Source of the DNA: Peribacillus simplex
Lineage (GTDB): Bacteria; Bacillota; Bacilli; Bacillales; DSM-1321
Assembly (NCBI RefSeq): GCF_900156045.1
Contig: NZ_FTMX01000002.1
Coordinates: forward strand, 868,001-932,000
Reading direction: 5' to 3'
DNA: 64,000 nucleotides
The stretch's first letter is position 1. Every line of letters starts with the position of its first letter. Made by a program: the position numbers and the translations under genes. A model generated the notes under the pieces. It saw only the letters and a list, made by a program, of their open reading frames with translations. It searched no databases and was not told the DNA's origin. Shown here in pieces: positions 16,467 to 28,660 of this stretch.

Positions 16467-17990
16467 TTATCTATTTGATTCTTTTGGTATTGGAACCTTG
16501 TGCCCTTCCGTTGTCGTCTCCAAATTATTGACACCTTGATGAGTATAATGAATGTTTTTTGTCAAAAGGCTTACCACCACCAAGACTACGATATTAACAA
16601 ATAGGGCAATAATCCCTACATTCAGGTCTTTAATTGCCTGAGGAAGATAAGGAAATAGTTGACTGATTTTTATGTTCCCCAGTTCCATAATAGAGACTAG
16701 AACTCCTCCTGTTATTATCCCGGCAAATGCTCCATGTTTGGTTACAAAATTCTTTCTCATCAAACTTGCGAAAAAGGCAGGAGCAAGTTGTGTAATGAAA
16801 TTATAAGCGATTAAGGCGAGACTAAAGAGGGAATTTCCACCTTTAAAGGTCAAGTAAATCCCTACGAGAGAAATTAGGGGAACCAAGTATTTTACCAATT
16901 TTGCAATCTGATTTTCCGTTGCTGATGGAGTGAATACGCTATATATATTTTTTGCAAGCAATGTTGATATTGACATCAACAGCATGGAACTTGGCACTAA
17001 AGCTGCTAACACGCCAGTTCCACCAATTAAGCCCACAAACCATGGATCAAAATCCTGTTTAGAAAGCTGCAGCAAGATTTGATCGGCTTCGCCGCCTTTT
17101 AATCCAGGCATCTGTAAGATCGCTGCAAATCCAACAAAAAAGGCAAACAATAAAATCAATTGGTATAGTGGCATTAGGATTGCGTTTTTCCGTAAAGCTT
17201 TTTCGCTAGAGGCAGCATATATGGGAGAAAAGCCGTGCGGCCACATATAAAATCCAATAGAGCTTAATATAACCGTGGATATATACCACGAAACGCTCAT
17301 TCCCTGATCTGGAAGTATGGTATAGTTCGGCTTTGCATTTTCAATTGCCTCATACATAGGTTGAAGACCGCCATAATAATGAAGAGGGAAATAAACTCCT
17401 AAAAATACGACAATGCCAAGAATCAGAATATCCTTCAAAATAGCTGTCCTGGCAGAGCCATGAATACCGGAAACCATTACAAAAATGGTCACACCAATTG
17501 CTCCGACCCAAATGGCAGCTGTAGAAGAAATAGCCCCATAGGATGTTGCTGAAACGATATATCCTAACCCCTTCAATTGCAGCACTAAGTAGCAAGTACA
17601 AGCTACAACACCAATAACCGCAACAAGCACACCAAGATAAGGACTTTGATATTTTTTTACAAAAAAGTCAGATTGGGAAACTAATTGGTGTTTCTTTGCA
17701 TACCTCCAGATAGCAGGAAATGTCCAATAGGAGATGACTGTAGCCAGGCAGCCATATGATACGATACTAAAGATGGAACCCCCTTCCCCATAAGCAGATC
17801 CACTTGCACCCAAAAAGGTAAAGGTAGTATACATTTCACCAGCGGACAAGAGGAAAATCAATAGGGCTCCCATCCCGCGTCCTCCAACCGACCATTGTTC
17901 CAAGTTCATTTCTTTCCCTTTTTTAGCCTGAATACCGATCAAAACAGAAATGACGAAAAAAAACAGGATAAAAAAAACGGCAATATTCAT
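16467..17990 (-). CDS. Sodium:solute symporter family transporter (SSS)
   Basis: A 507-residue membrane protein with about 13 predicted segments, of the SSS family (PanF/PutP-like). Landmarks: WSVGGRGMGALLIFLLSAGEMYTTFTFLGASG near the N-terminus, WRYAKKHQLVSQSDFFVKKY in the first loop, and GTGVLAALVPSSMLLMSISTLLAKNIY. It should import a carboxylate or amino-acid-like solute with Na+. It overlaps the DUF3311 gene by four bases (ATGA) and follows an M20 amidohydrolase. The substrate is therefore likely the amidohydrolase's substrate or product. A close paralogue is at 59767-61251. Confidence 0.9.
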   Translation of the reverse strand: MNIAVFFILFFFVISVLIGIQAKKGKEMNLEQWSVGGRGMGALLIFLLSAGEMYTTFTFLGASGSAYGEGGSIFSIVSYGCLATVISYWTFPAIWRYAKKHQLVSQSDFFVKKYQSPYLGVLVAVIGVVACTCYLVLQLKGLGYIVSATSYGAISSTAAIWVGAIGVTIFVMVSGIHGSARTAILKDILILGIVVFLGVYFPLHYYGGLQPMYEAIENAKPNYTILPDQGMSVSWYISTVILSSIGFYMWPHGFSPIYAASSEKALRKNAILMPLYQLILLFAFFVGFAAILQMPGLKGGEADQILLQLSKQDFDPWFVGLIGGTGVLAALVPSSMLLMSISTLLAKNIYSVFTPSATENQIAKLVKYLVPLISLVGIYLTFKGGNSLFSLALIAYNFITQLAPAFFASLMRKNFVTKHGAFAGIITGGVLVSIMELGNIKISQLFPYLPQAIKDLNVGIIALFVNIVVLVVVSLLTKNIHYTHQGVNNLETTTEGHKVPIPKESNR

Positions 17991-18199: not shown

Positions 18200-19387
18200 C
18201 TAGTATGTTAGATTTAACATTTTCAAAGTCCCATGAACAAATAACTTCACCCCATTTTGTAAAGCCTGTTCATCGAAAGTGAATTTTGGATGATGGTGAG
18301 GATAAATAATCCCTTTTTCTTCATTACGGGCTCCTATCACTATATAAGATCCCGGAACCACTTTTTGAAAAGCAGAGAAGTCTTCACTTCCCATAATTGG
18401 TTTTAAAATCTCTCGACTTTCTTCACCAAATGCTTCACAGATCGATTCGTCCATCAATCTGGTAACTTCTTCATCATTAATGGTAGGAGCATAACCAAAC
18501 AGATAATCGAATTCATAAGTGGCTCCATGCGCTTCGGTAATTCCTTTTACTATGCGCTCGATAAAATTCGGGATCTCTTCACGTAGTTCTGGATTGAAGC
18601 TTCGAACCGATCCACCAATGCTTACACTACTTGGAATGACATTAATCGCACTTCCCGCATGGAATTGGGTCACTGAAATCACAAGGGCTTCCTGGGCATC
18701 CCGATACCTCGAAACAATATGCTGGAGATTCGATACAACCTGTGTTCCAATTGCTATGGGGTCGACGGTAAGTTCAGGCTGTGAGGCGTGCCCCCCTTTC
18801 CCCACAACGGTAATGTTAAAAGTATCAGCTCCAGCCATCACCGGACCGTAGCCCAAACCAATTTTCCCTAAAGGAAGAGTCGACAAGAGATGGGATCCAA
18901 TGATCATATCCACTCCATCTAGCACACCGGCTTTCACCATTTCTTGAGCTCCACCGGGCGGCAGTTCCTCAGCATGTTGAAATAAAAAGCGCACCTCCCC
19001 TTTAACTTGATCCTTTAACTGTGCAAGAATTTTTGCTGTGCCAAGCAGCATCGCCGTATGCCCATCATGTCCGCAAGCATGCATAACTCCTGAATTCTGT
19101 GACACAAAGTCAAAATCATTCTCTTCTTCAATTGGAAGCGCATCCATATCTGCCCGCAATGCAATAACCTTCCCAGGCTGCTGACCGATCAAACGAGCCA
19201 TAACACTCGTCTTTGTCGGACGTGAAATTTCCAATTCACCAAAAGTTTGCAGCTTTTCATAAACAAATTGTGCTGTTTTTTCCTCCTGAAAAGAAAGCTC
19301 CGGATACTTATGTAAATATCTTCTCCAAGCAACCACTTCATCTTTAACAGCCTCGATTAAATCATGAATCATTATCGTTTGAGACAT
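18200..19387 (-). CDS. M20 family metallo-amidohydrolase (N-acyl amino acid hydrolase type)
   Basis: A 395-residue cytosolic enzyme of the M20D group (hippurate/IAA-amino-acid hydrolase-like) that cleaves N-acyl amino acids. The metal-binding residues are visible: HACGHDGHT, the Glu pair in HAEELPPGG, and the distal His in YPHHHPKFTFDEQ, with MGSEDFSAF before it. The lid/dimerisation domain lies at about 185-300 (GKGGHASQPELTVDPI). It is first in a three-gene operon with DUF3311 and a symporter. The promoter is consensus-like with a palindrome at +1, probably a target of the regulator encoded just upstream. The acyl group hydrolysed is not known. Confidence 0.9.
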   Translation of the reverse strand: MSQTIMIHDLIEAVKDEVVAWRRYLHKYPELSFQEEKTAQFVYEKLQTFGELEISRPTKTSVMARLIGQQPGKVIALRADMDALPIEEENDFDFVSQNSGVMHACGHDGHTAMLLGTAKILAQLKDQVKGEVRFLFQHAEELPPGGAQEMVKAGVLDGVDMIIGSHLLSTLPLGKIGLGYGPVMAGADTFNITVVGKGGHASQPELTVDPIAIGTQVVSNLQHIVSRYRDAQEALVISVTQFHAGSAINVIPSSVSIGGSVRSFNPELREEIPNFIERIVKGITEAHGATYEFDYLFGYAPTINDEEVTRLMDESICEAFGEESREILKPIMGSEDFSAFQKVVPGSYIVIGARNEEKGIIYPHHHPKFTFDEQALQNGVKLFVHGTLKMLNLTY

Positions 19388-19441: not shown

Positions 19442-19495
19442 TTTAAGGAAAAAATTCCTTAAATAGAGTATAATCTGCCTCGGTTTTTATTTCAA
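19442..19495 (-). promoter_or_regulatory. Promoter and palindromic operator of the M20-DUF3311-symporter operon
   Basis: Minus strand: -35 TTGAAA (19490-19495), 17-base spacer, -10 TATACT (19467-19472). Immediately after it a perfect 9-bp inverted repeat TTTAAGGAA-N4-TTCCTTAAA (19442-19463) covers the predicted start. The same promoter/palindrome geometry occurs before abgT. Confidence 0.7.
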
Positions 19496-19583
19496 TATTT
19501 TTCGAAAATTCCAAACTATTTTCAAACTTTAACTATTTCCCATGTTTTACAATAAAATGAAACACAGCATTAAGCAGAAATAA

Positions 19584-19609
19584 AAAGGCACCCCAATTAT
19601 GGGTGCCTT
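19584..19609 (-). terminator. Terminator of the upstream regulator gene
   Basis: GGCACCC / GGGTGCC stem directly after the regulator stop, with TTTTTATTT following on the minus strand. Confidence 0.85.
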
Positions 19610-20911
19610 TTATAATAATCGATAAATTTTACTCGGCCTTCCACGAGTGGCGTTAGCCTCTTCCCCAATGCATTGTGCCAAATCAACTTCGCACATATCT
19701 GCAACAATTCGCCGTACATTGCGCTCTGTCATTTCAAGATGTGTCGCTAAATCCTTTGTAGTAAAATCAATCCAGCCCATTCTTTGAACGAGAGCCGATA
19801 TTTTCTTATACGTTTTAACACTGATATTTCCGTTTTTCAACTTTTCTATAAGGAGTTTATCGTGGGAACGGGTATCATATTGCAGTTCTTTCTTTTTGCC
19901 TGGTGATTCGATAATTTTTCCATCATCTTGAATAATCACAATTTCACGCTTTTTCATCTCCTTCGAATGTTGAATAGCACGAAAAGCATTGATTTCCGCT
20001 GAATAGGCAGTCTCGCCGAAGCCAATTCCGACGGTAACGGGTGTATCTGCTTCAAAGGCCAATTTTTGAATGGTATCTTCGAGAGTGATGATTTCTCGTT
20101 CAATTGCGCCGCGAGAACTAAAGATCATGTACCTTCCATTCCCTTTCTCTGAAAAGGAGCCATTTATTTTTTCTCCAAGTTGAATCAACATTTCTTTTAA
20201 CCGAAGCTCCAAGTACTGTAAATGATAAGGAGTTTTCATTTCCTCTGCCACTTTGTTAAAGTATTCGACTTCAATGATTTCAACTCCGATTTGTGTATCC
20301 TTAAAGTAGGATGTCTTTACTTTTTCAGAAAGAATTCGAAGCGTTTGCCGCACTTCCATCTTACTAATCGACATACGGTAGGCTGGAATTCCCTTTTCCC
20401 TTAAAGCTTCACACACTGATGGAAAACAAGAAAAAGCTCCTTCTGTCTTTCCCTTATTCCATAAGTTTAAGTGAAAATGCAACAATTCATCCGTATCAAC
20501 ATCCAATTCATCAAACACTTTCGTATAAATCTTTTGGGTTTTTATATTCAACTGGGACAAAGCTTCTTCGCTAATATTATTTGAGGACATAGTATCAATA
20601 CTTAGTTGCTCGATGATTTTCCCTTGATCGTAAATCATTTCTAATAAGGACTTATAAAAACCTGATTCCGTGGCTGGAACATGGACCATTATTTTATCTG
20701 TACCTAGTGTCTTTTTGGCGATTTCATAGGGAAGTGGACCAGAAAAAAGCCATGCATGCACGTTAGAATCATGTTCCTTTACAATATTCTCTACCTCTTC
20801 TGTCTTCGCATAGGGCAAAGAGATGAATTCCAACTCATGTTTATATTCTTCTGCCAAGAGTAAAATTTGTTCTATAGAAGTTTTTAGACCGACCAGTCCG
20901 ATTTTATACAT
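19610..20911 (-). CDS. Regulator with PrpR-N-like, degenerate GGDEF-like and winged-helix domains (paralogue 1)
   Basis: 433 residues, no membrane segment. The N-terminal ~200 residues look like an alpha/beta sensor domain (VHAWLFSGPLPYEIAKKTLG) loosely recalling PrpR_N. Residues ~225-345 end in PVTVGIGFGETAYSAEINAF, RAIQHSKE and IVIIQDDGKI. This resembles the last part of GGDEF/GTP-cyclohydrolase-III nucleotidyl cyclases, but there is no GGDEF loop, so it is probably ligand-binding only. The C-terminus is a helix-turn-helix (TTKDLATHLEMTERNVRRIV) with a basic RGRPSKIYRL tail. It shares order and many identical blocks with the protein at 22520-23824. It probably controls the adjacent M20 operon. 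Confidence 0.7.
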   Translation of the reverse strand: MYKIGLVGLKTSIEQILLLAEEYKHELEFISLPYAKTEEVENIVKEHDSNVHAWLFSGPLPYEIAKKTLGTDKIMVHVPATESGFYKSLLEMIYDQGKIIEQLSIDTMSSNNISEEALSQLNIKTQKIYTKVFDELDVDTDELLHFHLNLWNKGKTEGAFSCFPSVCEALREKGIPAYRMSISKMEVRQTLRILSEKVKTSYFKDTQIGVEIIEVEYFNKVAEEMKTPYHLQYLELRLKEMLIQLGEKINGSFSEKGNGRYMIFSSRGAIEREIITLEDTIQKLAFEADTPVTVGIGFGETAYSAEINAFRAIQHSKEMKKREIVIIQDDGKIIESPGKKKELQYDTRSHDKLLIEKLKNGNISVKTYKKISALVQRMGWIDFTTKDLATHLEMTERNVRRIVADMCEVDLAQCIGEEANATRGRPSKIYRLL

Positions 20912-21228
20912 CCAGTAATCGACTTCCTTTTATAATCTGTAATAGATTCATTGTTCTTTGTAGAATAATCTAGTTTAATCTAAGTCATGATATCGTAATC
21001 TTAATTCTTCTGCTGTCTAACTATTGCTTAATTTGCATTGAGTCATGATTATCAGTTGTTTAGTTACTCTTATCGTATCAGTTGCAAAAAGAAAAGAGTC
21101 ATAGCAATGGTATATATAGTTGTATTCATACCCACGCCAAACTTTTCTCTTTTGAATCATTTTATCATGTAACACTTTTATTCGTGAACATCTGCTCTTA
21201 GGAATTATTATACTATCCTGCCCATTAA
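20912..21228. other. Intergenic region between regulator 1 and the gamma-carbonic anhydrase gene
   Basis: AT-rich upstream region of the regulator. Several TAATC and ATGAT-type half repeats are present, but no clear promoter or gene could be fixed. Confidence 0.4.
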
Positions 21229-21252
21229 AAAAGCTGCCTCAATGACAGCTTC
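21229..21252 (-). terminator. Terminator of the gamma-carbonic anhydrase gene
   Basis: Minus-strand stem AAGCTGTC / GGCAGCTT with one G-U pair, followed by TTTTTTAAT, 50 bases beyond the stop. Confidence 0.8.
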
Positions 21253-21301
21253 GCATTTCTATAAAGAATCCTTACGAACAGGACCCGATCCAGCATACAT
21301 T

Positions 21302-21982
21302 TCACTGGTCATAGGCAAATCCGCAGGAGCAACGATTTTTCCCAAATAACAGGTGATAAGATGCGGGAAATTCCTGATTGACTCGTTGAACTTCATTCGC
21401 AAATTCCTTACTATCCTTTGGTACTCGTGAAAGTGCATCCGCTTTTTCCTGCGAATCAATATTAGCTCCAGGTGGTACAAACCTATCAGGTGGTATCCGA
21501 ACTCCATTTGTCACTACTGCATTATAAGAAATAAATGCTCCTCTTCCTACAATTGCTGTATAAACAATGGAATTAAAACCAACAAATACTTTGTCTGCAA
21601 TATAACAAGGACCATGGACAAGGGCACCATGAGCAATGGTCACTTCATTTCCAATGAATATCGAATACCTTTTTCCCCCAACTGAAATCCTTTTATTTAA
21701 TAAACCATGTAAAATCACTCCGTCCTGTATATTTGAATTGGAACTTATATAAAAGGGAGTTCCTTCATCCGCACGTATACTTACATTAGGAGCTACATAG
21801 ACATTGTTACTAATGGTTACATCACCTATGACACTGGAAAACTGACTTACAAATGCCGTTTTATCAATTTTAGGAAAACGTTGGACAGGATTAAATGAAG
21901 TAATGGGATTGGGACTTATAAATGGTTCAAAACAGTGAGAATGGTTATTAGAAGAGGAGTTTGTTCCTTTTTTTTCACCCAA
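21302..21982 (-). CDS. Gamma-class carbonic anhydrase (Cam-type)
   Basis: About 226 residues with a left-handed beta-helix of hexapeptide repeats (SSVIGDVTISNNVYVAPNVS onward) and a C-terminal helix. The active-site pattern matches the archaeal Cam enzyme rather than the commoner CamH/YrdA proteins. It shows RADEGTPFYI (the catalytic Glu loop), NIQDGVILHGL (first Zn His and second Glu) and TIAHGALVHGP (two Zn His). It should interconvert CO2 and bicarbonate in the cytosol, as no signal peptide is seen. The start is a TTG (21980-21982) behind AAGGAGGTGAT, better than the longer frame to 22078. The N-terminal ~30 residues are Ser/Asn/His-rich and unusual. Confidence 0.85.
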   Translation of the reverse strand: MGEKKGTNSSSNNHSHCFEPFISPNPITSFNPVQRFPKIDKTAFVSQFSSVIGDVTISNNVYVAPNVSIRADEGTPFYISSNSNIQDGVILHGLLNKRISVGGKRYSIFIGNEVTIAHGALVHGPCYIADKVFVGFNSIVYTAIVGRGAFISYNAVVTNGVRIPPDRFVPPGANIDSQEKADALSRVPKDSKEFANEVQRVNQEFPASYHLLFGKNRCSCGFAYDQ

Positions 21983-22015
21983 GTAATCACCTCCTTCACA
22001 ATCTATCGGGTTTAA

Positions 22016-22360
22016 GTATTTTATGCAGGAAGATTTGGTGAAGAATGGGCTATCATACAGGTATCTATCCCTTTCCATGAAGCAGAACTTGACCTCAGAG
22101 GAGGGAATTTTTCAGTTTTCCCCCTCAAATATAGAATTTGTGCAGTTTATGAATCAGCCGTGGAAGATCACGAAATTTCTTAGCCACCCGGGGATCTAAA
22201 ACGTGAAATCAAGAAATTTATGACATACTGCAAGCATACTGATATCAATGGAATTAAAAAGAATGACCCCTGTTCAAATCAGAGATCATCTCCTAAAAAC
22301 TGCCTCGACTTTTTTTACTCTGCCCGTTACAACAAGTCCCGCTTTTTATACCATAATTAG
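22016..22360 (+). pseudogene. Possible gene remnant with an in-frame stop
   Basis: One plus-strand frame stays open from 22016 to 22360 apart from a TAG at 22181. It reads like a real protein (FGEEWAIIQVSIPFHEAELD, then FSVFPLKYRICAVYE, and after the stop DLKREIKKFMTYCKH). It lacks a start with a ribosome binding site, since a TAA precedes it at 22013. It could be the decayed tail of a transferred or deleted gene. The family is not recognised and chance cannot be excluded. Confidence 0.3.
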
Positions 22361-22519
22361 CATAAAAATCCATTCCCTAGGACGGGTGCCGTGACCGCTT
22401 GAAATTAACGGTTTAACAGCATATTTATAGAAGCCTCATCCACATAGAGCAAGAATAACCTTCAAAATTTTCATCGCAACTTTAATTTCATTTATGTGTA
22501 TACCAAGAACGTCGGGGTG

Positions 22520-23824
22520 TTACTTCTTTAACATATAAATTTTACGAGGTCTTCCCCGTGGTGATTGAAGTTCTTCCCCTTTGTACTCCACTAAACCGCT
22601 ATCACTCAAACTACTCATAATTCTCTGGGCATTTCGAACGGTCATGGATAAATGAGAAGCTAAGTCTGAGGAAGTGAAGCCGTCCCAGCCCATACGATCA
22701 ACCAATGCTTCTATCTTTTTATACGTTTTTACACTAATGTTAGCCTGATTCAATTTATCTAGCAGTTCTTTATCATTAGAACGGAAGGTATATGCCAATT
22801 GTTCTTCTTGACCTACGGATTCAATCATTACACCATCTTCTTGGATAACGACAATTCCGGAACTGTCTTGCTTCTTCGAATGACGGATCGCCTTGCGGGC
22901 ATTGATTTCTGCAGATGCAGCCGTCTCACCAAAACCGATACCAACTGCAACTGGGACATCCATTTCAAGGGCCAGTTGTTGAACAGTACTTTGCAAGCTG
23001 CCAATTTCCCGTTCAATTGCCTTTCGTGAACTAAATATTTGATAGCGGCCGTTTCCATTTTCGATGAGGGATCCATCTAATTTTTCGCAAAATGCAAGTA
23101 ATGTTTGTTTAATCTTAAGCTCCACATGCTGCAGATGGTAACGAATATTAACCTCGTCAACAAATTGGTCGAACTGATCAATTTCAATGATTTCTACACC
23201 AATTTGGCTATCCTTGAAATAAGTACTTTTTGCTTTTTCAATCAAAATCTTGACCGCTTGCCGAATTTCCATCTTTGTCATATTTATTTTGTAGACAGCA
23301 ACATTTTCTTTCTTCAAGGCCTCATATACAGATTGTAAAACGGTTAGGACAGCATGTATCTCCCCTTCCCTCCACAATTGAAGATGAAATTGAACAATTT
23401 CTTGATAATCATATTGTTCATCAAATGTTTTTACATAAATATGTTCGGTGGAAATCCCCAGCTCTTGTAGCGACTCATGCAAAAAAAAGTCTTCCAGTCG
23501 AATCATATCGATGGATAACTTATCGAAAAAATGTTTTTGATCTGCAGACATTTGTAATAAACATCTATATAAACTAGATCCTACAGGAGGACAATATGTA
23601 AAATTGGCCTCTGAATCCAACATTCCTTTTGCTATTCTATAAGGAACTGGTCCAGAGAAAAACCAACCATTCACTGTACTTTCGTGATTTTTTATAATGT
23701 TCGTTACCTCACGTGCATCTTCATATGGAAAATCAATAAAATCTATTTCATGTTCAAATTCATTAGTAACATCCCGAATTTTCTTTATAGATGAAAGTGG
23801 ACCTACAACTCCAATTTTATACAA
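22520..23824 (-). CDS. Regulator with PrpR-N-like, degenerate GGDEF-like and winged-helix domains (paralogue 2)
   Basis: 434 residues with the same architecture as the protein at 19610-20911. The shared blocks are MYKIGxVG at the start, WFFSGPVPYRIAKGML, STYFKDSQIGVEIIEID, the cyclase-like VAVGIGFGETAASAEINARK with AIRHSKK, the spacer NISVKTYKKIEALVDRMGWD, and a C-terminal helix-turn-helix (FTSSDLASHLSMTVRNAQRI) ending in PRGRPRKIYML. The start is a TTG behind AGGGGTGA. It is divergent from abgTAB, whose promoter carries a perfect inverted repeat at +1, so it is the likely abg regulator; E. coli instead uses a LysR protein (AbgR). Confidence 0.7.
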   Translation of the reverse strand: MYKIGVVGPLSSIKKIRDVTNEFEHEIDFIDFPYEDAREVTNIIKNHESTVNGWFFSGPVPYRIAKGMLDSEANFTYCPPVGSSLYRCLLQMSADQKHFFDKLSIDMIRLEDFFLHESLQELGISTEHIYVKTFDEQYDYQEIVQFHLQLWREGEIHAVLTVLQSVYEALKKENVAVYKINMTKMEIRQAVKILIEKAKSTYFKDSQIGVEIIEIDQFDQFVDEVNIRYHLQHVELKIKQTLLAFCEKLDGSLIENGNGRYQIFSSRKAIEREIGSLQSTVQQLALEMDVPVAVGIGFGETAASAEINARKAIRHSKKQDSSGIVVIQEDGVMIESVGQEEQLAYTFRSNDKELLDKLNQANISVKTYKKIEALVDRMGWDGFTSSDLASHLSMTVRNAQRIMSSLSDSGLVEYKGEELQSPRGRPRKIYMLKK

Positions 23825-24080: not shown

Positions 24081-24134
24081 TTGAAATAGATTATTCTTAA
24101 TTATATAATACATTTAACGAAAATAGCGTTAAAT
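24081..24134 (+). promoter_or_regulatory. Promoter and palindromic operator of abgTAB
   Basis: -35 TTGAAA (24081-24086), 17-base spacer, -10 TATAAT (24104-24109). A perfect 8-bp inverted repeat ATTTAACG-N7-CGTTAAAT (24112-24134) overlaps the expected start, and another half site (ATTCGTTAAAT, 24135-24145) follows. Confidence 0.75.
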
Positions 24135-24293
24135 ATTCGTTAAATAAAAAGTATATTGAAAGGAACTAATGAAGTTCATAAAGGATGAAAGACGGTAATT
24201 TGAGTTTAAGGCATGTTTAGAGAAAAAGTTTATAAATGGAATGGTGCAAAACGCACAAACTACAAATGGAAGAAGGTTTAGGAGGAGAATGTA

Positions 24294-25838
24294 ATGGAAC
24301 AAAAAGTTATGAAAGATACAACTAATCTTCAAAATCATAAAACGGGTGGTTTTTTCAATCGAGTAGAGCGAATAGGAAACAAGATCCCCCACCCCTTTAT
24401 CTTATTTATTTATATGATTGCCTTTTTATTTGTTGTAACCGCTCTCTTATCAGTCTTCCATGTTTCGGCATCGGACCCCATAAGTGGAGAGAAAGTGGAA
24501 GTTCAAAACCTCTTAAGCCGTGAAGGCATCCAATGGATTTTGCCGAATATGATTAAAAACTTTTCCGGCTTTTTACCACTGGGATCGATTTTAGCTCTTA
24601 TGCTAGGAGTAGGATTAGCTGAAAAAGTTGGATTGTTGGAAGTTTTGATTCGGAAAATGTCGTTAAAAGTCTCAGGGAAATACGCTAGTTATTTAGTTGT
24701 ATTTGTTGCCTTCTTTAGTCATGTTTCTTCTGATGCTGCGCTTGTTATTATGCCTCCCCTTGGTGCTTTGATTTTCCTTGCTGTGGGACGTCACCCTGTT
24801 GCTGGGTTGCTCGCTGCCATCGCTGGGGTTGGTTCGGGTTTCACTGCCAACTTATTAATCGTCACAACAGATGTCTTGCTTTCAGGAATTAGTTCGGAAG
24901 TGGCGAAAGGCATGAATGCAAATTTGACGGTTAATGTTACGGATAACTGGTTCTTCATGGCGACCTCCGTTCTCGTACTCACGGTAGTCATCTCCTTGAT
25001 TACAGATAAATTTGTCGAGCCGCGCCTAGGTAAGTATGAAGGTGGCGGTCAGCATAAAAAACTGGAGCAATTAACGAAGCAACAAAACAAAGCACTCCTG
25101 GCTACAGGTATTTCAGCATTGATTTTTATAGCTGTTATGGCCGTTCTAGTCGTTCCAGAAGGAGCTCTATTGCGAAATCCAGAAACTGGAGCCATTCTCC
25201 CCTCTCCATTCATGTCTGGAATTGTCGCAATCATCTTACTCTTCTTTTTTACAGTTTCTATTACTTATGGAGTTAAGGTGGGAGCAATCAAGAAACAAAA
25301 TGACATTCCGGAATTATTGGTGGACCCAATTAAAGGAATGGCTGGATTCATCATTATGGTTTTCCCGCTTTCCCAGTTTGTCGCTTGCTTTAACTGGAGT
25401 AATATGGGTAAATTTTTGGCTTTATCCATCACAGATCTCTTGGAACAACTAAACATAGAAGGTGCACCTGTCCTAATTGGGCTAATGTTCTTATCTGGAC
25501 TTCTTTCCATGTTCATTGCTAGCGGATCTGCAATATGGTCTATATTGGCACCCGTTTTTGTCCCGATGTTCATGGTATTAGGCTATCATCCTGCCTTCGC
25601 CCAAATGTTGTTCAGGGTAGCAGATTCATCTGTACTGCCATTGGCACCTGTATCTCCATTTGTCCCACTATTCTTAAGTTTCTTACAAGAGTATCGAAAA
25701 GATGCAAAACTAGGAACCTATTATTCTCTTATTTTGCCGTATCCGATTATCATCTTCATCATTTGGACGCTATTGGTAGTCGTTTGGTATTTCCTTGGCC
25801 TCCCAATTGGTCCCGGAGTATATCCGAAATTACCATAA
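24294..25838 (+). CDS. abgT: p-Aminobenzoyl-glutamate transporter AbgT
   Basis: A 514-residue membrane protein with about 11-12 segments. It is very similar along its length to E. coli AbgT as I know it: VERIGNKIPHPFILFIYM, HVSSDAALVIMPPLGALIFL, the long conserved GRHPVAGLLAAIAGVGSGFT block, IASGSAIWSILAPVFVPM and RVADSSVLPLAPVSPFVPLF. It imports p-aminobenzoyl-glutamate, a folate breakdown product, probably driven by an ion gradient. The ATG follows GGAGGAG. It is first in the abgT-abgA-abgB operon, behind a strong promoter with an operator-like palindrome. Some AbgT-family members export sulfonamides, but the neighbouring hydrolases favour uptake. Confidence 0.93.
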   Translation: MEQKVMKDTTNLQNHKTGGFFNRVERIGNKIPHPFILFIYMIAFLFVVTALLSVFHVSASDPISGEKVEVQNLLSREGIQWILPNMIKNFSGFLPLGSILALMLGVGLAEKVGLLEVLIRKMSLKVSGKYASYLVVFVAFFSHVSSDAALVIMPPLGALIFLAVGRHPVAGLLAAIAGVGSGFTANLLIVTTDVLLSGISSEVAKGMNANLTVNVTDNWFFMATSVLVLTVVISLITDKFVEPRLGKYEGGGQHKKLEQLTKQQNKALLATGISALIFIAVMAVLVVPEGALLRNPETGAILPSPFMSGIVAIILLFFFTVSITYGVKVGAIKKQNDIPELLVDPIKGMAGFIIMVFPLSQFVACFNWSNMGKFLALSITDLLEQLNIEGAPVLIGLMFLSGLLSMFIASGSAIWSILAPVFVPMFMVLGYHPAFAQMLFRVADSSVLPLAPVSPFVPLFLSFLQEYRKDAKLGTYYSLILPYPIIIFIIWTLLVVVWYFLGLPIGPGVYPKLP

Positions 25839-25957: not shown

Positions 25958-27217
25958 TTGGATATTATTTCTTTAAGACGTGATCTTCATCAACATCCAG
26001 AAGTTGGCTTTACGGAATTTCGTACTGCTTCAAAGGTAGTAGAAGCACTAACTTCTCTGAAATATAACGTGATATTTGGAAAAGATGCTTTAGATGGTGA
26101 TTCTCGCCGTGGAGTCCCCCCTATAGAAGTATTGGAGGAAACATTTAATAGAGCATTACAAGATGGCGCCAACCCAAAGATCCTCCAAGAAATGGAAGGT
26201 GGATATACTGCTGTCATTGGTATTTTAAAAGGAAAAACTGATGGTCCAACCGTAGCTTTCCGCTTTGATATGGATGCATTGCCTGTTACGGAAAGTACTG
26301 ATTCCGACCACTTCCCGCAAATGAACGGTTTTCGTTCCAAATATGAAGGGAATATGCATGCCTGTGCACACGATGGCCATACAGCAATTGGCTTGGGACT
26401 TGCTGAAAAATTAGCAGATGGGAATTTTTCAGGAACGGTAAAGCTTATTTTTCAACCTGCTGAAGAGGGAGTACGCGGTGCCTATTCAATTGTTCAAAAA
26501 GGGATATTGGATGATGTGGATTATTTATATTGTCTGCACCTTGGCACAGATGTCCCCCTAGGAGAATTTCATGGTGGTTCTTCCGGCTTTTTAGCAAGTA
26601 CGAAAATGGCTGCCCATTTTCATGGGGTATCTTCTCATGCAGGTGCTTCTCCGGAAAAAGGGAAAAATGCTTTGTTAGGAGCAGCCACCGCATTATTAAA
26701 TATACATGCCATTCCAAGATTCAGTTCAGGTTCTACCCGCATAAATGTAGGTATTCTTAACGGAGGAACAGCCGCTAATATTATTCCAGCGCATGCAAAG
26801 ATGGTCATTGAAACCCGTTCTGTATCCGAAGAAACAAATGCTGAAGTGGAGCAACGTGTTCGAAATATCGTGGCTCATAGTGCAGGTATGCATGAGCTCG
26901 AACATGAAATTGAAATCATAGGTCAAGCCATTACGATTCGTTGTGATCAAGAACTTGTCGAACTGGCAATGAAAGAAGCCAGGAATGTAGATGGTTTTTC
27001 AACAATCAAAGCATACAGGGAATCCGGTTCTGCTGGTAGCGAAGATGCAAGTTTTATGATTCGAAGGGTACAGGATAATGGCGGGAAAGGGACATATATG
27101 ATTATTGGGACTGATATTCCTGCACCACATCACCACCCTAAATTTGATATTCAAGAAGAAGTTTTACCAAGGAGTGCAGAACTTTTGAATCTAATCGCAA
27201 GACGCCTATTAAAATAA
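25958..27217 (+). CDS. abgA: p-Aminobenzoyl-glutamate hydrolase subunit A (M20)
   Basis: 419 residues. With AbgB it forms the Mn2+-dependent hydrolase that splits p-aminobenzoyl-glutamate into p-aminobenzoate and glutamate. M20 metal ligands are visible: ACAHDGHTAIGLGL, QPAEEGVRGA and HHHPKFDIQEE; GSAGSEDASFM is the conserved late motif. The N-terminal insertion SRRGVPPIEVLEETFNRALQ matches the AbgA subgroup specifically. The start is a TTG (25958) behind AGGAGTG, 119 bases after abgT. Confidence 0.92.
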   Translation: MDIISLRRDLHQHPEVGFTEFRTASKVVEALTSLKYNVIFGKDALDGDSRRGVPPIEVLEETFNRALQDGANPKILQEMEGGYTAVIGILKGKTDGPTVAFRFDMDALPVTESTDSDHFPQMNGFRSKYEGNMHACAHDGHTAIGLGLAEKLADGNFSGTVKLIFQPAEEGVRGAYSIVQKGILDDVDYLYCLHLGTDVPLGEFHGGSSGFLASTKMAAHFHGVSSHAGASPEKGKNALLGAATALLNIHAIPRFSSGSTRINVGILNGGTAANIIPAHAKMVIETRSVSEETNAEVEQRVRNIVAHSAGMHELEHEIEIIGQAITIRCDQELVELAMKEARNVDGFSTIKAYRESGSAGSEDASFMIRRVQDNGGKGTYMIIGTDIPAPHHHPKFDIQEEVLPRSAELLNLIARRLLK

Positions 27218-27253: not shown

Positions 27254-28660
27254 ATGACACATGTAAATAGATTATCGGAAATCATTGAACAAAAAAAAGA
27301 AAAATTCATTGAAGTCAGTGACAGTATCTGGAATTTTGCAGAAACACGCTTTGAAGAATATCAATCTGCTGAATTGCTATGCAGCACGTTAGAAAACGAA
27401 GGATTTTCTGTTGAAAAAGGTGTTGGAAACATAGAAACGGCATTTATCGGTAGCTTTGGGAGCGGTAAACCAATTGTGGCAATCATGGGAGAATTTGATG
27501 CGCTGTCAGGTATGAGTCAAAAAAAAGCTACGGCTAAACAAGAGCCAATAGTACAAGGTGAAAATGGCCATGGATGTGGTCATAATTTACTTGGTACGGG
27601 ATCCTTAGCTGCAGCTGTTGCAGTGAAGGATTATATGGAAGAGAATCATATAAATGGGACAGTTCGTTATTATGGATGTCCAGGAGAAGAAGGCGGATCA
27701 GGCAAAACCTTCATGGTCAGAGAAGGTTTGTTCGATGACGTTGATTTTGCTTTTTGTTGGCACCCATTGGATGTTAACGGCGTTATGTCGATGGATTCGC
27801 TTTCCAATTTCCAAGTGTATTATAAGTTTAAAGGCAAAAGCTCTCATGCAGCAGCATCACCACATTTAGGACGGAGCGCTTTAGATGCCGTAGAACTTAT
27901 GAATGTTGGCGTGAACTATTTAAGAGAGCATATTATTCAAGAAGCAAGAGTCCATTATGCAATAACGAATTCAGGTGGATTATCGCCTAATGTTGTCCAG
28001 CAAGATGCAGAAGTTCTTTATTTATTACGAGCTCCGGAAGTTTCGCAAGTTCAAGATATTTACTTGAGAGTTTGTAATATTGCTAAAGGAGCTGCCCTTA
28101 TGACAGGAACTGAAGTGGAAATCGTTTTCGATAAGGCCTGTTCCAATGTTATCCAAAACAATGTACTGGAATCCGTCATGTACAAGAATTTTGAAGAATT
28201 AGGCATTCCACAACACGATGATAAGGAAAAACAGCTTGCCAAAGAAGTCCGCGCCACCTTAACCGAACAAGAAAGGAACAGTACAGTCAATCCTTTTAAA
28301 GATAATCAAGATGATGCTTTGGCAAATTGGTTAGAACCCATTGAGGGCTACCAAGCGCCATTAACAGGGTCCTCGGATGTGGGGGATGTTAGTTGGATCG
28401 TTCCTACTGCCCAATGCACGACAGCTTGTTTTGTTCTTGGGTCACCTTTGCATAGCTGGCAGTGGGTTACACTGGGATCAACATCCATTGCCCATAAAGG
28501 AATGCTTCATGCTGGAAAGGTTATTGCGGCAACTGCAGTTGAAGTACTTCAAAATCCTGAATTAATTGAAAAGGCAAAAACGGAGCTAAAAGAACGATTA
28601 AAAGGGAAAAGCTATATCTCCCCTATTCCGCAAGATGTAAAGCCTTTAGTTAAAAGATAG
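27254..28660 (+). CDS. abgB: p-Aminobenzoyl-glutamate hydrolase subunit B (M20)
   Basis: 468 residues, the partner of AbgA. AbgB signatures: ENGHGCGHNLLGTGSLAAAV (first metal ligands), GCPGEEGGSGKTFMVREGLF, SSHAAASPHLGRSALDAVEL, RVHYAITNSGGLSPNVVQ, SSDVGDVSWIVPTAQC and TSIAHKGMLHAGKVIAATAV. The ATG follows AGGAAGGAAAG, 36 bases after abgA, so they are co-transcribed. The operon would let the cell salvage p-aminobenzoate for folate and use glutamate. No clear terminator was seen just after the gene. Confidence 0.93.
   Translation: MTHVNRLSEIIEQKKEKFIEVSDSIWNFAETRFEEYQSAELLCSTLENEGFSVEKGVGNIETAFIGSFGSGKPIVAIMGEFDALSGMSQKKATAKQEPIVQGENGHGCGHNLLGTGSLAAAVAVKDYMEENHINGTVRYYGCPGEEGGSGKTFMVREGLFDDVDFAFCWHPLDVNGVMSMDSLSNFQVYYKFKGKSSHAAASPHLGRSALDAVELMNVGVNYLREHIIQEARVHYAITNSGGLSPNVVQQDAEVLYLLRAPEVSQVQDIYLRVCNIAKGAALMTGTEVEIVFDKACSNVIQNNVLESVMYKNFEELGIPQHDDKEKQLAKEVRATLTEQERNSTVNPFKDNQDDALANWLEPIEGYQAPLTGSSDVGDVSWIVPTAQCTTACFVLGSPLHSWQWVTLGSTSIAHKGMLHAGKVIAATAVEVLQNPELIEKAKTELKERLKGKSYISPIPQDVKPLVKR

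Follow-up and report, generated by a model that had tools for sequence, protein, structure and literature searches.

What do two closely related proteins regulate, and in response to what, when neither reaches the cut-off of any Pfam or NCBIfam model? This question is raised by a 64,000-nucleotide stretch of the Peribacillus simplex genome (assembly GCF_900156045.1, contig NZ_FTMX01000002.1, positions 868,001 to 932,000; henceforth the window). Regulator A (22520-23824, minus strand; 434 residues from a TTG start) comprises a PrpR_N-like region (residues 1-201), a region resembling GGDEF and GTP cyclohydrolase III domains (residues 202-347) and a winged helix (approximately residues 360-432), and its paralog, regulator B (19610-20911, minus strand; 433 residues), has the same three parts. 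We propose, with a probability of about two in three, that A and B are one-component repressors of operons for scavenging N-substituted amino acids or peptides, with the inducer bound by the N-terminal domain.

The family of regulators A and B

A and B are 50% identical over 432 aligned residues (E-value 5.6e-137), which indicates that the sequence blocks common to both reflect homology and not chance. The initial annotation had called them paralogs of 433/434 residues, and both open reading frames are present as described, on the minus strand. The middle part is the best conserved between the two (58% identity), followed by the linker and wing (56%) and the N-terminal part (42%). In an alignment of 68 family members (69 rows below 70% identity, less L155 and two L067 rows, plus A and B) the residues G297, A305, R401, G424 and R425 are invariant, and G58, G295, G299 and P426 are nearly so. 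Conserved positions inside the blocks first quoted for the pair are found across these 68 members, but the whole block strings are not shared family-wide.

This genome carries seven copies of the family, A and B included. Of 200 genomes sampled across the class, 67 have matches (at an E-value of 1e-5), as do 28 of 398 sampled across the phylum (26-row profile, 1e-8, with scoring limited to four candidates in each genome). Those named relatives that are closest to A, with Peribacillus among them, are 87-95% identical to it. A plasmid collection yielded four matches, two of them in Actinomycetota; three have an annotated gene, in each case a ‘hypothetical protein’. One plasmid-borne member, from Bacillus badius (L248, 8001-9275), adjoins genes for a flavin hydroxylase, a DUF1028 protein and RidA, and another, from Prescottella equi (L249, 8001-9209), adjoins an L-serine ammonia-lyase gene. 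A literature search returned no account of this architecture, though subscription journals mostly lay outside that search and absence from print is hence unproven; the accessible portions of PMC2904730 and PMC11617747 do not describe it either. Within the profile libraries and literature searched there is, as the initial annotation had supposed, no described family of the same build. The profile searches likewise turned up neither an unrelated fold for the middle region nor a characterized family of this architecture, and the profile comparisons uphold the three-part division into a sensor-like, a cyclase-like and a winged-helix domain.

Predicted target operons, promoters and operators

The predicted targets of A are three plus-strand genes coding for an AbgT-family transporter (24294-25838; Pfam PF03806, E-value 2e-186) and two M20 amidohydrolases (25958-27217 and 27254-28660; 310 and 293 bits against TIGR01891, cut-off 154). 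Those of B lie on the minus strand and code for an M20 amidohydrolase (18200-19387; TIGR01891, 388 bits) and a transporter of the sodium:solute symporter (SSS) type (16467-17990), which has no Pfam match at an E-value of 1 or less and for which the best NCBIfam model is the monocarboxylate permease MctP (3e-60, below cut-off). A promoter-like site, TTGAAA-17-TATAAT (11/12; 24081-24109, plus strand), precedes the AbgT operon, with the same hexamers at this place in five relatives. Just after its -10 box is a palindrome, TTTAACGAAAATAGCGTTAAA (24113-24133, plus strand), which is the predicted operator of A, followed by a third half-site, TTCGTTAAA (24136-24144, plus strand). The M20-SSS operon is similarly preceded by TTGAAA-17-TATACT (10/12; 19467-19495, minus strand) and, just after this -10 box, by the predicted operator of B, TTTAAGGAAAAAATTCCTTAAA, which reads TTTAAGGAATTTTTTCCTTAAA on the coding strand (19442-19463, minus strand). 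Gene B ends in a terminator-like hairpin (19583-19611, minus strand), which stands upstream of this promoter; the region has six such hairpins versus 3.0 expected, and palindromes of the form GCACCC...GGGTGC occur in L067, L091, L094 and L118 too.

The promoter, palindrome and third half-site before AbgT are kept in five close relatives, in which the AbgT-proximal end is conserved too; the arm bases of the A palindrome agree at 14 of 14 positions in L067 and at 12-13 in the other four. The third half-site lies about one helical turn downstream of the palindrome, with matching places in L067-L070, L085 and L130, and its presence suggests that the operator may bind more than one dimer.

The distribution of these palindromes was examined at 79 named loci, which derive from the best 80 of 104 relatives matching two peptide patterns and are biased to the window's own clade. 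A generalized A palindrome (at most two mismatches) occurs beside the regulator at 17 of these loci versus two of 619 other gaps, and the exact B palindrome at 11 versus one; five shuffles gave neither. Some of the other-gap matches may themselves be real sites: in L087 an A site stands ahead of AbgT at 3.4 kb from the regulator, and in L085 a B site adjoins a second regulator. As the patterns had been refined on the data, the test was repeated with patterns whose letters came solely from the window; it covered 69 loci, ten presumed close kin having been dropped. The B palindrome at 16 or more of 18 positions was then found 10 times in the 17,415 bases of gap after a regulator and not once in 1,379,404 bases elsewhere; at 15 of 18 the figures are 10 and three. 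The A palindrome at 12 or more of 14 gave six matches after a regulator and 11 elsewhere; among its matches, that in L130 is really B-like and one in L088 is irregular. Across the 64-kb window, the A pattern is matched at 13 or more of 16 positions a single time, beside A; a perfect match to the B pattern likewise occurs once, beside B, with the next best at 11 of 14.

Most of the sites follow a promoter: among the 52 that lie no more than 1 kb from a regulator, 43 have a promoter scoring at least 9/12 that ends 0-12 nucleotides before the palindrome, versus 2.2% at positions shifted by 40-200 nucleotides. Where such a promoter is present (46 sites), the palindrome core (TAAC... or TAAG...) begins exactly 5 nucleotides after the -10 box in 33 cases. 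A third operator type, near TAAGGGTAATTACCCTTA, is found in an ArgH-linked group (four of 79 loci, at most two mismatches). From these sequence patterns, we infer that the palindromes are the operators of A and B.

The protein side shows a matching difference. Residue 400, in the putative recognition helix, is the column of the whole protein that best separates A-type from B-type regulators: it is Gln in A (codon at 22625-22627, minus strand; RNAQR) and Arg at the equivalent position of B (19712-19714, minus strand; RNVRR). Leaving out 33 rows with no assigned site, it is Gln in 29 of 29 A-type regulators and Arg in 17 of 17 of the B type and four of four of the third type. The alternation of Gln and Arg parallels that of C and G at the fourth base of the half-site.

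A search for exact dyads with 5-base arms in 20 A-clade loci gave weak signals only. One of them, the cre-like TGAAAGNNCTTTCA, is by its consensus probably a CcpA-type site and not the site of the regulator. It is perfect in seven Brevibacillus loci and L122. A perfect cre-like TGAAAGGGCTTTCA stands 103-127 nucleotides before AbgT in the Brevibacillus loci L075-L078, L080, L081 and L083, and suggests that catabolite control there acts on top of the regulator.

The gene neighborhoods point to a common physiological theme. For these we added to the 79 named loci a diverse set of 40 hand-picked ones, of which 39 were used (L160 has no recognized member); the name given to each gene cluster comes from scanning one or a few of its genes. 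At 64 of the 79 named loci a gene of the two M20 clusters lies no more than 5 kb from the regulator, and at 28 AbgT does; within the same distance, the diverse loci have M20 at 23 of 39, an enolase-superfamily racemase/epimerase at nine and AbgT at six. The count for M20 is 19 of 34 diverse loci without the five from this genome, and 35 of the 57 loci holding 70%-non-redundant members. In the present genome, six of the seven paralogs lie within 5 kb of one of the 46 M20 matches, although such positions make up 8.2% of the genome (binomial probability approximately 2e-6, or 2e-5 if A and B are counted once), and the seventh adjoins an ArgH-like gene. The recurrent modules include AbgT-M20-M20, M20-SSS, a major facilitator superfamily (MFS) transporter with M20 and glutaminase, an amino-acid transporter with an ArgH-like lyase, a racemase with M20 and YfcC-like or NhaC-like transporters, and peptide-transporter genes with an amidohydrolase. 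Their shared theme would be the uptake of N-substituted amino acids or peptides and the release of the amino acid. The MFS-M20-glutaminase module next to the regulator recurs in L095, L098, L101, L104, L105 and others, with the glutaminase named from L095 alone, and suggests N-acyl-glutamine as the substrate of that branch. In L180 and L181, which belong to one genus, divergent members lie between genes for an NhaC-type antiporter and an enolase-superfamily racemase. Between B and A themselves is a hexapeptide-repeat, carbonic-anhydrase-like gene (21302-22078, minus strand; best NCBIfam model the carboxysome scaffold CcmM, E-value 2.4e-60, 204 bits against a cut-off of 550), which we take to be unrelated to the regulators.

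Domain composition and the degenerate palm

The middle domain (22784-23221, minus strand, in A) had been likened to GGDEF and GTP cyclohydrolase III domains, a comparison which both profile and profile-profile searches sustain. Using a 45-row profile of this domain, GTP cyclohydrolase III (2qv6) is the top match in the PDB (E-value 4.6e-10; next chain 0.16). It is also first with the full-length 68-row profile (2.6e-6, touching both of its palm repeats) and second with a 26-row profile (0.011), and the single sequence of L183 finds it at 3.4e-5, followed by a putative GGDEF/response-regulator protein at 0.02. When the 68 members were scanned singly, 24 matched Pfam GCH_III (best 2.2e-7) and 20 GGDEF_GdpP (best 1.6e-9) at an E-value of 1 or less; at the curated cut-offs, four of ten chosen members match GGDEF_GdpP (one by 0.1 bit), three GCH_III and five either. 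In hhalign comparisons, the middle domain attains 95% with the GGDEF domain of GdpP and 84% with GGDEF_2; for three GGDEF sequences taken from this genome the value is 41%, versus 0.1-1.2% for decoys (PrpR_N, response regulators and 19 neighbor-gene clusters). The corresponding values for the 45-row profile are 96%, 75% and 30%, versus at most 0.5% for PrpR_N, LacI-type and response-regulator decoys. As a yardstick, the accepted relatives GdpP and GGDEF_2 give 86% with each other. The similarity spans the whole palm domain and stands above the decoys, as expected of a member of the palm superfamily, and supports the view that the middle domain is a worn-down palm of the GGDEF/GTP cyclohydrolase III type which has lost its signature.

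The initial annotation had seen no GGDEF loop. Its position does exist: hhalign aligns the GG[DE]EF loop to residues 257-261, which read GNGRY in both A (23042-23056, minus strand) and B (20129-20143, minus strand), with Gly and Arg at the two acidic positions. Among relatives, the loop reads GGDEF in L147, GGDEY in L183, GSDEF in L153, EGDEF in L149 and SGDEY in one of the two L176 members. Acidic residues occupy both 259 and 260 in seven of 68 members and 259 in 13, and four have an acid at both 259 and strand-1 position 214. A and B do not combine the acidic third loop residue and strand-1 Asp of active diguanylate cyclases, and the loss of the acidic loop residues suggests that the palm of the window proteins is probably a structural or allosteric module and not a cyclase. 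Judged by the roles of the metal-site residues in diguanylate cyclases, the L183 member, with DID on strand 1 and GGDEY in the loop, appears to keep the whole metal site. It adjoins an A-like operon (regulator, two M20 genes and AbgT); since this is the same kind of operon as that beside A, the loss of the loop seems to have left the type of target unchanged.

The N-terminal domain (23222-23824, minus strand, in A) is a probable sensor of the PrpR_N type: hhalign gives 78-86% with PrpR_N (PF06506) over 143-147 of 166 positions, versus at most 5.5% for decoys (5% for the same-fold LacI type), with 20% for PrpR_N against LacI as a yardstick. All 68 members keep D106 and H147, two candidate residues of a ligand site. 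At the C-terminus stands a winged helix that closes with GRPxKxY; among models for winged helix-turn-helix (HTH) domains, the Lrs14 type matches 39 of the 68 members and HTH_Crp_2 24 at an E-value of 1 or less, A itself being below every cut-off.

These parts resemble several known systems. The PrpR_N domain of sigma-54 activators aligns, in profile-profile comparison, with the N-terminal domain of A and B, but the Pfam scan of A and B gave no PAS, AAA+ or sigma-54 HTH family, and no PF06506 match. GTP cyclohydrolase III (PF05165; 2qv6) is the best PDB match, and both palm repeats of the enzyme align to the middle domain; yet the enzyme has two tandem palms, whereas A and B have one, without the acidic loop, fused to a sensor and a wing. 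Only this one region of the family matches a palm, the N- and C-terminal parts matching other families, and the proteins are hence not GTP cyclohydrolase III. The GGDEF domain of the c-di-AMP phosphodiesterase GdpP (PF24898) is the strongest profile match, at 95-96% over 121 of 126 positions. GdpP combines this domain with DHH/DHHA1 phosphodiesterase domains, but no phosphodiesterase-domain family was found in the Pfam scan of A and B. Closest in plan are the PucR/CdaR-type regulators (GGDEF_2, PF17853, with the PucR HTH, PF13556): in the part of PMC11617747 available, the PucR-type MabR is described as having a GGDEF fold without catalytic motifs, placed between a sensor and a DNA-binding domain. 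The middle domain of the A/B family compares with GGDEF_2 at the 75-84% given above but is nearer to the GdpP GGDEF and GTP cyclohydrolase III domains; the sensor is different, a winged helix stands in place of the PucR HTH, and neither PF17853 nor PF13556 was matched in the Pfam scan of A and B at an E-value of 1 or less. By these comparisons, A and B are not PucR, GTP cyclohydrolase III, GdpP or a diguanylate cyclase, having a PucR-like plan put together from different parts.

A proposed repressor mechanism and its alternatives

In the mechanism that we propose, a dimer held by the palm and/or the N-terminal domain would sit on the palindrome and keep the near-consensus promoter blocked. The transporter of the operon would bring in an N-substituted amino acid, acyl amino acid or peptide, which would bind the PrpR_N-like domain, and the palm would relay the change to the winged helix. 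The regulator would then leave the operator, so that the transporter and the M20 hydrolases could be produced and the amino acid set free. Dimerization, repression and the class of ligand are all inferred from the sequences, repression being favored because the palindrome comes just after the -10 box of near-consensus promoters.

Several observations weigh against this reading. A tree from which the recognition-helix columns were left out shows just two changes of operator type, so that the covariation amounts to one or two independent events, and L097 combines Gln400 with a G-type site. Promoter-like sites in the region number 17 versus 18.4 expected from shuffles, although the two used here are among the three best. 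The window-seeded test was not blind, as several B sites were known beforehand and the thresholds were chosen, and its p-values of 1e-19 (B) and 4e-8 (A) are overstated, for loci of one genus are not independent. A promoter-anchored search of the 39 diverse loci found no consistent shared site, and outside the window's clade only one B-like site was seen, before AbgT in L176; the operator claim thus covers mainly that clade. In Brevibacillus, many of the A-type sites have just one good arm. There is no M20-cluster gene within 5 kb at 15 of the 79 named and 16 of the 39 diverse loci. For the sensor, an hmmsearch of the PDB with the N-terminal domain reaches no PrpR structure, leaving profile-profile comparison as its support, so that the PrpR_N assignment is no more than probable; PF06506 is also not among the 25 of 129 Pfam families listed as matching the 68 members. 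Finally, PrpR- and PucR-type regulators are often activators.

This last point leads to the alternative that A and B are activators, acting from the same palindromes and required for expression, as most of the characterized PrpR and PucR/CdaR-type regulators would suggest. However, activators normally bind upstream of the -35 box, whereas here the palindrome core comes after the -10 box, usually at a distance of 5 nucleotides, and the promoters are near consensus (11/12 for AbgT). The PucR-type MabR, to go by the available text of PMC11617747, does offer a precedent in its plan of sensor, inactive GGDEF domain and HTH, yet we consider activation unlikely. It is still less probable that the palindromes belong to another, global regulator, with A and B binding elsewhere. 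The sites are short and A/T-rich, and at several loci these gaps also contain the cre-like TGAAAGNNCTTTCA, ahead of AbgT or the MFS gene, which makes it probable that other regulators act there; but the site of a global regulator would recur at other operons, whereas 1.38 Mb of other DNA in these loci has no B site at 16 of 18 (three at 15 of 18), each palindrome occurs once in the 64-kb window, beside its own regulator, and the site type tracks both the regulator clade and the recognition-helix residue.

A different issue is whether the palm senses a nucleotide (GTP, ATP or a cyclic dinucleotide) and integrates nucleotide state with amino-acid supply, as CodY does. Its nearest folds come from the nucleotide-binding proteins GTP cyclohydrolase III and GdpP, and an acid persists at the metal-binding loop position in 13 of 68 members, together with the strand-1 acid in four. 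The Gly and Arg of the window proteins at the acidic positions speak against it, as does the fact that the authors of the MabR structure, in the accessible part of PMC11617747, name no effector and report no catalytic motifs; we regard such sensing as possible but doubtful. A related and more speculative scenario, to which we give little credence, is a nucleotide-gated repressor lineage, in which the members with GGDEF and the strand-1 Asp, such as that of L183, would bind or even turn over a nucleotide and release the operator only upon both an N-acyl amino acid and the right nucleotide state, and the window pair, having secondarily lost the metal site, would answer to the amino-acid ligand alone. 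That A and B are defense-related is highly improbable. The DS41_1_antiphage model does match 29 of 68 members at an E-value of 1 or less (best 1.2e-6), and Csa3 and CARF models match up to 16, but the DS41_1 matches, where coordinates are given, cover only the wing (residues 368-432 of B and 319-395 of the 399 in the L180 protein) with 17-19 bits against a cut-off of 370, and the recurrent neighbors scanned are genes of amino-acid catabolism and transport, no search having been aimed at defense families.

The repressor reading concerns a widespread regulator family of the Bacillota, with seven copies in this genome alone, of which A and B fall below the cut-off of every Pfam and NCBIfam model. 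It presents a case of a GGDEF-superfamily domain recruited into transcription factors outside PucR, with some relatives still carrying GGDEF. Through the predicted operators the function of the family can be tested directly, and knowing it would help to annotate many M20/AbgT operons.

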